A stretch of DNA of 28,652 nt from a virus, in the IMG/VR virus record IMGVR_UViG_3300025133_000473, positions 1-28,652 of that record. One strand, 5' to 3'. Below are positions 9,257 to 28,431 of this stretch, piece by piece (position 1 is the first letter of the stretch; the number at the start of each line of letters is the position of its first letter). A model generated the notes under the pieces. The model saw nothing but the letters and a program-made list of their open reading frames with translations. It was not told the origin of the DNA and searched no databases. Made by a program: the position numbers and the translations under genes.

Positions 9257-12200
9257 ATGTCACAGGCTATTATAAGTTCGGCCAAGGAATTATTAGACTA
9301 CGCACTTGCACATCCAGATGAAATGGAGTCAAGGGGTGTTGATATAGATGAAATTCAGGCCCTGTATAATTCAGCAATTCAAATGTATCCTCAGGAAGAG
9401 AAAATAGACCCTCAGGAATTATTAAAAATCCCAGAGTTTAATCCACAAATATCTCAAAATGATATACCTCAGACGGAGGCAGTAACATCCTCAACCGCTG
9501 TTGAGAGCATCTTAAATAAACCACCGTTGGATAGGAGGTTATTTAAAGTTAAGGATACTAAGCTCAATGTAAATGGTAGCAGAAAAAACATGGGTGTTAT
9601 CCAGAAGAAGTTAGTTCCTACAGAAAGTAATGGGCATGACTGGGATACTAGTATTATTAACGATAAGAAAATCCTAGAAACTCTCCAAACACCAATTCTT
9701 ATGACTCGTGATATGACTGATGAAGAGATTGAGGTTTATGCTAAAAAGACAAAAGAGAAAAAAGAATTAGAGAAACAGGGGTATTCATTAATTGATATAG
9801 ATTCTGATGATTATAGTAAGATAAAAACTCCAGATTCCATAGGAGACCCTTTAAGGAGAGGTATTGTTCTGGCTCAAACAGCAGTAGGAGCTGGATTAAA
9901 TACAATCCCTTTAGTTATTCAATCACCTCAATTAAAATGGATTCAAACAAGGACGAATCAACTTCTACAGGATGAAATATTTATTGACGAGACGAAGACG
10001 GTTGAAAATAGGTACGAGGAAGCTAGGCGTAAAGCTAACGCTGAATTTCAAATGATGGCCATTGAAGGGACCCTACCAGATAATGTTAAGGATGCTTTAA
10101 AAGATAGAGATGATTTAGAAGATTTCTTTTATAATACAGGAAAAGAGATTGGAGATTTTTGGGCAGAATGGTGGGACCCAAAAGAGGCTACAGGGGAATA
10201 TGCAGAGCCACCAGAGAATTTTCTTGGATACCTAGACCCAGTTAGAATGTATATGGTTGGGGCAGAAACTGCTCCAATGATGGGGATGTTTGTTGCGACA
10301 ACTATAGCTAACCCAATTGCTGGAACAGCGACTATGTTTGCTATTGAGGCAGGTTCTTCTAAAGAGGGTATTCTTGAGTATGAGAAGACTACAGGGAAAC
10401 GTGTGCCTGAAGAATTAAGAAACACTATTCCAATTTTAGTAGGTTCCTTTAATGCAGTTCTAGAGAAATTTGGTTTAGATAGAGTTATGAAGGGAGCGGG
10501 AGTAAGGAGCCGTTTACTTAATATCCTTGTGGGGGCTATCTCAGAGGGTACTACTGAAGGATTTCAAGAGGTCTCTCAGATTATTGGTGAACAATTGACT
10601 CAAGAGGAGAAAAAATTATTTAAGTTTACAGAGCAGGATTGGGAGAGAACTGTTGCATCATTTTATGCTGGAACTATTATGGGTACAGCAGGAACCACTA
10701 TATCAAACACTCTTGATGTAGAGGGCAGGCTTGTGCATGATATGCAGAAAGAGGTTGATAAGTATGCCTCTGATAATGATATGTCAAAGAATGATTCATG
10801 GAATGAAGTTAATCGTGCTGTAGATAACAATGAAATAGATTCTGATATGGGAACATGGATTAAGCATTTCCTAATAAAAAACCCAGACTTTGATAAGTCC
10901 AGTGTGCTCGCTATCACAAAAGAGACCCGTATACTTCTTAAGGATGAATATATTCAAAACCTTATTGAAAACGAGGAACATACCCCAGAGGAGGCTGAGG
11001 ATGCATATCGTATTTGGGCTGAGTCTGAGCAACTTGGAGACACAAAGGCTCCCGGAGCATTTATTAAGGGGTCAACTAAAATTGACACTGACCTTCGCAA
11101 AATAGTTTTAAGTTTATATGGGGGTGCTGATAAAACTACTGTAATTGAAGAAATGTATGGAGCTCTATATAAAGGACTAACTGCCGAGGAGAGGAAGGCC
11201 GTTGAGGATGAATTTAGAGAAAATAATCCAGATAGAGTAGCGGACCTTGATAATGAACTTAAGCGAAACAATGGATGGTCTCAACTCTTAAATGAACATT
11301 TCCAGAAGCGTGGACTGAAGTGGTATCAGGAAGAGGGAGTTAAGATAAATCAAGATGTAGTTGATAGAGCCCTTACTCGTTTTGGTCAAAAGATTAAAGA
11401 TTTCTTTATAGGTGTGGATGAGGTGTCTCCTCTTGGGGATAAAACCATGGAGTTTATAACTCAGTTTGGACAGGGGACAAAAGGAATTTCTGAAATATAC
11501 TCAACCAAAGATGGTGAAACCATGCAGGCAGAGGTTCTGGACTACTCGAATAAGTTGTCTGAAATTAAGGAATCAGACCCTAGAAAGTACTGGTCAGTAG
11601 ATAATGTTCCTCCTGAATCAAAGGGTACTCCGATAGAAACTGAGCGTGGTGTTGCTTTTGTAGGTGAAGATGGTGATATTAAGGGATTAGCTAGTAAAGT
11701 TGGGGCAAAAGAGGGTGGTATTGCAGATGAACTTCTAGAGAAAGCTATTGAGGCTGGTGGTAATAAATTAGACAATTTCGATATTTATCTTACCGAAATT
11801 TATGAAAGAAATGGATTTAGAGTTGTAGCCAGAACCCCGTTCAATGAGGAATTTGCTCCAGATGGATGGGAGCCTGAGATTGGGAAGCCTGATGTTGTAG
11901 CTATGATACATGACCCAAATAGCATAGCTGAATTTGAAGAAAAAATGTTCGAGAGCCCTGATACTGGTTACGATGATATGATAGAGTATCGTGATAGTGT
12001 TCAGGAAACCATGCAGGCCGAGCCCCTAAAGGTAGATGAAATAGCACAAAAGTATTCCTCCAAGGAACCTATCACAAAGGGAATGGGGAGAGCTGGAGTT
12101 GCTACCGACAAGGGTTTGAGTGAGGTCCTTAAGGTACTAGCCGATGATGGATTCGATATAAACGGAGCTCTTGAGTGGTACGATGAGGCTGTATCCGAGG

Positions 12201-24485: not shown

Positions 24486-24685
24486 GCTCATCAAAGCACT
24501 TTAGAATAAACAAACTACACGAGAAAATTGATATAGCCGTACGCAATGCAGAGATATGTACTATCTGGCATACACTTGGGCTAGTTACTGAAATGTCTTA
24601 TAAGGAAAAGCAGGACTTTCTCTCAAAAGAATATTACCTATCACAGAGTCGGATAGAGGATATTATTAGAGAGAATGAGTTATAG
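24482..24685 (+). CDS. Small hypothetical protein with possible helix-turn-helix
   Basis: A 67-residue protein starting in an ATGA overlap with the NinG-like gene. Residues ~38-62 (SYKEKQDFLSKEYYLSQSRI followed by EDIIR) could be a helix-turn-helix, suggesting a regulatory or DNA-binding role, but no family is recognised. It overlaps the next gene by 11 bases. Confidence 0.48.
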   Translation: MSSSKHFRINKLHEKIDIAVRNAEICTIWHTLGLVTEMSYKEKQDFLSKEYYLSQSRIEDIIRENEL

Positions 24686-24908
24686 GGAATTCCTGATAGT
24701 AGCTATAGTTTCGGCCTTTATCTTTTGGGTTATGAACAATGCAGAGAATTACAATTCAGAGTACTATAGCTGTCCGGAGCACTGTTCCGTAGAGCATGAA
24801 CATATGGGGGTGAAAGGCTTCGATTGTGGATACGGCTCGAAAGAGCCTCCTCAAGATGGCAGTTCGACTCTGCCCACCTCCACAAATCAAAGGAGAAAGA
24901 ATGAATAA
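24675..24908 (+). CDS. Small membrane protein whose reading frame runs into the tmRNA-like element
   Basis: A 77-residue frame starting at ATG 24675. Residues 5-20 (EFLIVAIVSAFIFWVM) are one membrane segment; the next ~25 are polar with two Cys. From residue ~45 onward the codons come from the structured RNA at 24806-24882 and give an unusual Gly/Pro/Ser-rich tail (YGSKEPPQDGSSTLPTSTNQ). Either the gene lost its stop when the RNA element arrived, or the tail is functional. The N-terminal part looks like a real gene. Confidence 0.42.
   Translation: MSYREFLIVAIVSAFIFWVMNNAENYNSEYYSCPEHCSVEHEHMGVKGFDCGYGSKEPPQDGSSTLPTSTNQRRKNE
24806..24882 (+). ncRNA. Compact tmRNA-like tRNA-like domain (about 77 nt, no tag region)
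   Basis: Direct reading: GGGGGTG (24806-24812) pairs with CACCTCC (24875-24881) as a 7-bp acceptor stem with a single G:U at the third pair, G3:U70, plus A at position 73 (24882); together these are the alanyl-tRNA synthetase identity elements. AAAGGCTTCGA (24813-24823) matches the conserved tmRNA 5' segment GGnTTCGA. TTGTGGA (24824-24830) pairs with TCCTCAA (24848-24854), one T:T mismatch, like tmRNA P2; inside, GGCTC-GAAA-GAGCC is capped by a GNRA loop. GGCAG-TTCGACT-CTGCC (24858-24874) is a perfect T arm with consensus loop. No anticodon arm, no tag-coding insert and no encoded CCA (CAA follows). Expression is not shown. Confidence 0.72.
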
Positions 24909-25206
24909 TGACAGTAAGATTGTTATGGTAGTCGCTGAACTTGAAGATGGAAGGGAGCATATCCATTCTAAAAACCACAAGCCGTTGGAATATGATTTAA
25001 ACGACAAGAAGGATTTAGGCTTTATTGATGATTACTATAGAATGTATATTGAAGATAAAACAATGTGTTATAGTAAAGATTTAACAAGGATTCTCCCGAC
25101 AAAAGGAACTCCCCATAAAAATAGGGTTTTAGTCAAGGCTATCAGATATGAGAATTATGACAACGAGTTAAGGATTCCCTATAGAACCTTCGCTATAATG
25201 CAATAA
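24901..25206 (+). CDS. Hypothetical protein (101 aa)
   Basis: ATG 24901 has AGGAG 5 bases ahead; the frame is open further upstream into the RNA element but without a ribosome site. The protein starts with a beta-like segment (SKIVMVVAELEDGREHIHSK) and has many charged and Tyr residues (DDYYRMYIEDKTMCYSKD). No known domain recognised. Its leader AAAGGAGAAAGAATGAAT recurs before the next gene. Possibly an accessory (moron-like) gene. Confidence 0.55.
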   Translation: MNNDSKIVMVVAELEDGREHIHSKNHKPLEYDLNDKKDLGFIDDYYRMYIEDKTMCYSKDLTRILPTKGTPHKNRVLVKAIRYENYDNELRIPYRTFAIMQ

Positions 25207-28311: not shown

Positions 28312-28431
28312 CACACTACTCGATTCTCCTATTTAATTAAACTCGACTCTGCATTTATACGGACTTGTCACCGCCACGCCTTGTGGTTGCATTAGAGTGG
28401 GGGATATCGCTCCCCCAAGCGTTATAACTGG
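28312..28431 (-). promoter_or_regulatory. Leader of the minus-strand small-gene operon
   Basis: A 120-base gap on the minus strand. TATAAA (28359-28354 on the minus strand) is -10-like, but no good -35 sits 16-18 bases away. A hairpin at 28398-28417 and CCACGCCTTGTGG, a small inverted repeat on the plus strand, lie upstream. A/T-rich DNA follows down to the start at 28311. Plausible promoter or processing region; weakly supported. Confidence 0.35.
28398..28417 (-). terminator. Hairpin after the gene at the right edge
   Basis: TGGGGGA (28398-28404) and TCCCCCA (28411-28417) form a 7-bp G+C stem with a 6-base loop, 14 bases behind the stop of the minus-strand gene ending at 28432. No U-run follows on the minus strand, so it is a weak or factor-dependent terminator, or an RNA-protecting stem. 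Confidence 0.45.

Follow-up and report, generated by a model that had tools for sequence, protein, structure and literature searches.

The viral record IMGVR_UViG_3300025133_000473 of the IMG/VR collection (positions 1 to 28,652, a stretch of 28,652 nucleotides (nt) that is referred to here in its full length as the window) carries a small element related to transfer-messenger RNA (tmRNA) that consists of the tRNA-like domain (TLD) only. It lies within a series of plus-strand genes, and sequence and RNA fold place its mature core of 77 nt, including the discriminator base A73, at 24806–24882 (+). The acceptor stem is built from the 5' strand GGGGGTG (24806–24812, +) and the 3' strand CACCTCC followed by A73 (24875–24882, +); all 7 base pairs (bp) of 24806–24812 with 24875–24881 can form, among them G3:U70 (G3 at 24808, U70 at 24879), which together with A73 (24882) makes up the identity elements for alanyl-tRNA synthetase (AlaRS). 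CCA is not encoded, as 24883–24885 reads CAA.

Beside this acceptor, the core carries GGCUUCGA, a capped P2 helix and a T arm. Where a D arm would be expected stands GGCTTCGA (24816–24823, +), the signature of the tmRNA D segment. It is followed by P2 (24824–24854, +; TTG-T-GGA paired with TCC-T-CAA), in which the fold contains a U.U mismatch and a 3-nt bulge (UAC) and continues into a 5-bp hairpin capped by a GAAA loop (GGCTC-GAAA-GAGCC). P2 and this hairpin occupy the place of the entire mRNA-like and pseudoknot region. The linker GAT (24855–24857, +) leads to the T arm GGCAG-TTCGACT-CTGCC (24858–24874, +; 5/5 pairs). No tag reading frame with resume and stop codons is present, as the 31 nt from GGCTTCGA to the linker all belong to the P2 hairpin, and neither the sequence nor the Rfam match contains the pseudoknots PK1–PK4, the corresponding region being absent.

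The Rfam tmRNA model RF00023 aligns with the element from end to end, apart from the mRNA-like part, which is deleted (47.2 bits, E 6.4e-16); the score narrowly passes the gathering score of 47 bits. This is the sole RF00023 match in the 28.7-kb record, and no full-length tmRNA overlaps it or lies nearby, in a record that may be a fragment. The strands follow each other in the standard, unbroken order, and RF00023 is the best match of its clan, lesser overlapping clan matches not being listed. Covariance model R1, which was trained on nine other elements of equal length and excluded the window, recovered it with 54.3 bits (E 4e-10). The minimum free energy is -31.7 compared with -22.9 +/- 3.3 for shuffled sequences (z -2.7; better than 199 of 200 shuffles), and a degenerate TLD pattern has a single match in the window, with 100 shuffles giving none. 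ARAGORN made no call at all in the window. The original prediction, a reading of the letters alone, had described a stand-alone TLD with AlaRS identity elements, all of these TLD parts, the missing coding and pseudoknot region and a GNRA-capped hairpin closing P2, and had proposed a search with the Rfam model and a comparison of fold stability with shuffled sequence; sequence, fold and RF00023 agree with it on each of these points.

The class in phages and Poribacteria

Related elements were collected from viral sequences in three scans, the counts of which are lower bounds. The pattern of scan 1 described an unpermuted TLD in which GGnTTCGA and the T loop are 16–46 nt apart, a spacing that leaves out full tmRNAs. 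It matched at least 120 viral contigs, and all 120 elements listed form every acceptor pair (7/7) and T pair (5/5) and carry A73, base 73 lying outside the pattern. In scan 2, the acceptor was left unconstrained. Of the 120 matches listed, 119 still form it, with G3:U70 in 118 and A73 in all 119; pair 4 varies among G-C, C-G, A-U and U-A, and pairs 4–6 change with compensation. After scan 3, the collection comprised at least 147 distinct viral TLD-only elements, none of which lacks G3:U70, A73 or the linker adenine. Some positions were preset by the search patterns, G3:U70 by that of scan 1, the linker GGAC by that of scan 2 and the linker GA by that of scan 3. Counts independent of the patterns are those of A73 (scans 1 and 2), of G3:U70 (scan 2) and of the linker adenine (scan 1; 94 of 94 representatives), and the conservation owes part to shared descent.

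An early pattern with one surplus base between T loop and acceptor had given two chance matches inside coding sequence (L001 and L002). Applied to about 85,000 species genomes of bacteria and archaea, the pattern of scan 1 gave 45 stretches, about half of which fail the pairing test and were discarded as chance matches. ARAGORN does not call TLD-only RNAs correctly, its 'tmRNA' calls over three viral elements being spurious with a far-upstream 5' end and unrecognised tags, and hence there is an annotation gap for these RNAs.

Model R1 recovered all 79 representatives tested. Because the acceptor strand is displaced in a plain MAFFT alignment (A1), covariation was assessed on an alignment of these 79 homologues made with the model (A4), which is fitted to the structure and somewhat favours P2. 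In A4, 95.1% of cells are paired (shuffled 65.4%), both sides change in 19 of 24 pairs, and the covariation score is 0.684 versus 0.144 for shuffled and below 0.09 for slid alignments, a value reached by 0 of 500 shuffles. The acceptor and T stems contain no gaps and pair in 100% of cells, P2 in 88.9%. These comparisons are strong support for compensatory change across the class. In the commonest form, a P2 of about 8 pairs is capped by (U)AAARCC-G-CAYG-C-GG, and a shorter subclass of 58–69 nt closes P2 with a small loop; the window element, with its GNRA-capped five-pair hairpin, is a divergent member. Covarying homologues, which had been named as a check on the prediction, thus exist in large numbers in other phages, but none was found among relatives in the window's own phage group.

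In Escherichia coli tmRNA, Trp122 of SmpB sits in a pocket made by A15, U17 and A334, and SmpB binding requires G19 (PMC8363625). A landmark alignment assigns C24818 to A15, T24820 to U17, G24822 to G19 and A24856, in the linker, to A334, so that the equivalents of U17, G19 and A334 are retained in the window and that of A15 is not. The adenine equivalent to A334 is invariant across the class. Because G3:U70, A73 and the bases of the SmpB pocket are conserved, TLD-only RNAs appear to be held to recognition by both AlaRS and SmpB. No SmpB gene was found in the 19 phage records tested, and therefore host SmpB would be used.

Seven cultured phages are matched by R1, namely Stenotrophomonas phage Jojan60 and the Streptomyces phages Shaeky, LuckySocke, GiJojo, pSt2308, BRock and, more weakly, Alone3; a degenerate TLD copy is present in Streptomyces phage Riptide. 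In none of the carrier phages is the element annotated as tmRNA, and in GiJojo a hypothetical protein is annotated over it. The elements of the Streptomyces phages sit within gaps of tRNA arrays, as expected for an expressed tRNA-like RNA. Among 18 large phage records examined, the element is the only strong tmRNA match in 16. In one phage group, it lies 85–123 nt upstream of the HK97 capsid gene at 16 loci, several of them near-identical. In this capsid-linked group (L050, L063, L074, L124, L149 and others), the TLD is found between the portal and prohead-protease genes and the capsid gene, and a short repeat follows it at several loci. Another record of 136 kb (G053) has two TLD-only copies (L093 and L121) about 67 kb apart.

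Outside of viruses, the element was found in the phylum Poribacteria, where 9 of 59 sampled genomes have it. Seven metagenome-assembled genomes (L164, L166, L174, L176, L186, L196 and L203) carry a chromosomal TLD-only tmRNA adjoining the same pyridoxal phosphate-dependent decarboxylase gene, and most of the Poribacteria genomes with the element have a full-length tmRNA as well.

The insertion site in the window's phage lineage

The element of the window is part of a lineage-specific insert (24675–25206, +) that also contains two small open reading frames (ORFs) of 77 and 101 amino acids (aa), neither of which has a Pfam or PHROG match. A motif resembling a ribosome-binding site (AAAGGAG) and the ATG (24901) of the next ORF lie at 24888–24905 (+), the start codon being about 19 nt past A73. 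The surroundings of the element showed no sigma-70-like promoter. No integrase was recognised beside it; the neighbouring ORFs with family matches encode NinG/HNH and PDDEXK nucleases.

A megablast search of window positions 1–24000 against phage records gave no matches, and a search for relatives by the exonuclease-like protein found none; the capsid protein did yield relatives. The element is absent from all 27 capsid-relative records, most of which are fragments. Two of the relatives cover its site, and both are without it. In one (L043, genome G003), which lacks the insert, a 67-aa gene is directly followed by the PDDEXK gene, and in the other (L005, genome G002), exactly the same site is occupied by an AsxRS/AsnA-like class II synthetase gene (1973–2797, +; PF00152, E 3e-17). 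This comparison marks the site as one for cargo, in which the TLD is a passenger that arrived recently or is often lost. As the element is a variable insert, the case for selection on the window copy rests on its intact identity bases and on the class.

Three weak matches to RF00023 or R1 in relatives of the window were rejected as TLDs, i.e., a tRNA-Ser-like fragment (L020), a small hairpin resembling acceptor and T arm (L021) and a hairpin downstream of the capsid gene (L245). At 1483–1525 of L021 (G005 11489–11530), the relative phage has a 42-nt element, far smaller than a TLD, with a 7-bp acceptor-like stem, a linker of 8–10 nt and a T arm with the loop TTCGAGT. Self-cleaving ribozymes were also noticed in this lineage. 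A Twister-P1-like ribozyme at 28341–28398 (-) of the window (47 bits, E 1e-7, below the Rfam cut-off of 67) is conserved in a relative phage (L022 4565–4622, -), and another relative has a Hammerhead type II ribozyme that passes the Rfam cut-off (L025 544–605, +; G003).

Known counterparts and possible function

Canonical one-piece tmRNA (RF00023) shares every TLD feature with the window element, whereas it measures about 350 nt and has the tag frame, resume and stop codons and pseudoknots that are missing from the 77 nt of the window. The original prediction knew of no described class of this kind; such RNAs have, in fact, been published. Mycobacteriophage DS6A has a TLD-only tmRNA (tmID 11587; PMC4131195, PMC11915505), and tmRNAs without a coding sequence (CDS) are known from mitochondria of jakobids and oomycetes (RF02544) and, with about 65 bp, from plastids of Mallomonadaceae (PMC11915505). 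The DS6A gene is of the same kind, an unpermuted phage gene of little more than a TLD; it comes from a different phage group, and the window element, likened to it by description, has a P2 hairpin capped by GAAA and does not encode its CCA. Mao et al. 2009 are reportedly the source for the DS6A RNA and for an inhibition experiment with a related molecule. Organelle CDS-less tmRNAs retained the TLD and lost the mRNA-like region just as the window element did, but they are organelle genes, the mitochondrial ones mostly permuted, whereas the window element has the standard order and is carried by a phage. Full or two-piece tmRNAs of mycobacteriophages, Streptomyces phages and Melnitz (PMC9004378) are also phage copies of ssrA; they carry a tag, however, and are thought to support rescue, whereas the window RNA cannot tag. 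Since DS6A and the organelle RNAs are known, the window element adds a member to a kind already described and does not found a new class. New relative to the tmRNA literature surveyed are the extent to which the kind is spread, its presence in cultured phages and in Poribacteria, the apical hairpin that it conserves and an independent check of its identity elements.

As to function, the window RNA is somewhat more probably than otherwise a dead-end mimic that can be alanylated and bound by SmpB and that blocks or diverts trans-translation. Its structure and homology to tmRNA, the covariation of the class and the conservation of AlaRS and SmpB bases are observed; the window RNA itself would probably be transcribed, processed, charged and bound by SmpB, and by analogy may inhibit tmRNA. 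The 77-nt RNA would be cut out of an early transcript by tRNA-processing enzymes and receive its CCA, host AlaRS would charge it with alanine via G3:U70 and A73, and the charged RNA would bind host SmpB and EF-Tu. The complex of Ala-TLD, SmpB and EF-Tu would then enter ribosomes stalled at mRNA ends, or the RNA would soak up SmpB earlier. Without resume codon, tag and stop codon, the complex would compete with host tmRNA and block or divert trans-translation during infection. A crystal structure demonstrated that alanyl-TLD, SmpB and EF-Tu bind the stalled ribosome without an mRNA part (PMC3968760), and an RNA similar to that of DS6A is reported to inhibit tmRNA strongly, 'perhaps acting by titrating SmpB' (PMC4131195, PMC11915505). 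Among the ideas of the original prediction, the decoy is best supported, by conservation of the identity and SmpB bases and by analogy to this published inhibition. A charged dead-end substrate is favoured over pure titration of SmpB because the near-perfect retention of G3:U70 and A73 exceeds what titration needs; the retained identity elements suggest a role beyond it.

Several points weigh against this proposal. The published inhibition was obtained with a similar molecule, and reportedly worked whether that molecule was chargeable or not (PMC4131195, PMC11915505). A full tmRNA occurs alongside a TLD-like element in the 98.8-kb record G059 (L052) and in Streptomyces phage Riptide (W08), and a pure anti-tmRNA role explains such pairs poorly. 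The P2 of the window element is itself irregular with its mismatch and bulge, and selection cannot be shown within the window's own phage group.

The main rival is productive rescue without a tag, in which Ala-TLD and SmpB would take over the nascent chain and recycle the stalled ribosome untagged, speeding rescue of the phage's own ribosomes. Strict retention of G3:U70 and A73, which implies that charging matters, fits such a role, which has been proposed for mitochondria that retain a CDS-less tmRNA with SmpB (PMC11915505), and other phages carry full tmRNAs (PMC9004378). It is considered unlikely, however, for an RNA that has no stop codon to release the chain, and the published TLD-like molecule is reported to have inhibited tmRNA. 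Kept identity elements would also suit an alanine acceptor for non-ribosomal use, e.g., by an Ala-tRNA-dependent peptide or lipid ligase, and the fixed position upstream of the HK97 capsid gene at 16 loci, some near-identical, as well as the AsxRS/AsnA-like gene at the cargo site of L005, would agree with this or with a punctuation mark for transcript processing by RNase P. Such roles are improbable: the SmpB-specific bases, useless for them, are invariant, no partner gene is common to the class, and the synthetase-like gene and the TLD never occur together here.

A similarly small chance is given to a relic without present function, either a captured tmRNA gene that is decaying after a deletion or what remains of an ssrA attachment site. 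Within its phage group, the element is confined to the window record, with two site-covering relatives lacking it, the copy in Riptide is degenerate, and 3' tRNA fragments do occur at integrase attachment sites (L020 and L212). On the other hand, acceptor, T arm and all identity bases of the window are intact, and the class covaries throughout; unlike attachment-site fragments, which comprise the 3' part only, the element has its 5' acceptor, D segment and P2, and no integrase was recognised next to it. The 'deleted tmRNA' of the original prediction, if meant as a mere relic, is disfavoured, as the class is conserved. Hardly credible is a truncated or armless decoding tRNA-Ala, which would share the alanine identity elements and the T arm and is already contradicted by the structure; there is no D arm and no anticodon arm with a 7-nt loop, the P2 loops of many members measure 3–5 nt, the tmRNA-specific GGnTTCGA is present, and ARAGORN finds no tRNA.

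For the charged dead-end mimic, a broader proposal is made tentatively and may well hold, namely that TLD-only tmRNAs are a large, previously unrecognised class of small RNAs in many phage groups, far commoner than DS6A alone would indicate, selected to remain alanylatable and SmpB-binding, and that they act as charged dead-end substrates which shut off or re-route trans-translation and were later domesticated in some Poribacteria chromosomes. In print, the kind was documented from a single phage isolate and a few CDS-less sequences, with 9 'standard, no CDS' entries among 97,179 tmRNAs (PMC11915505), as compared to at least 147 viral sequences here. Why alanine identity is kept, though titration of SmpB alone would not require it, is a puzzle, and whether it is common for phages to hold down tmRNA rescue by means of an RNA mimic has become a testable question. 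If true, an RNA-based strategy against ribosome rescue would be common among phages.
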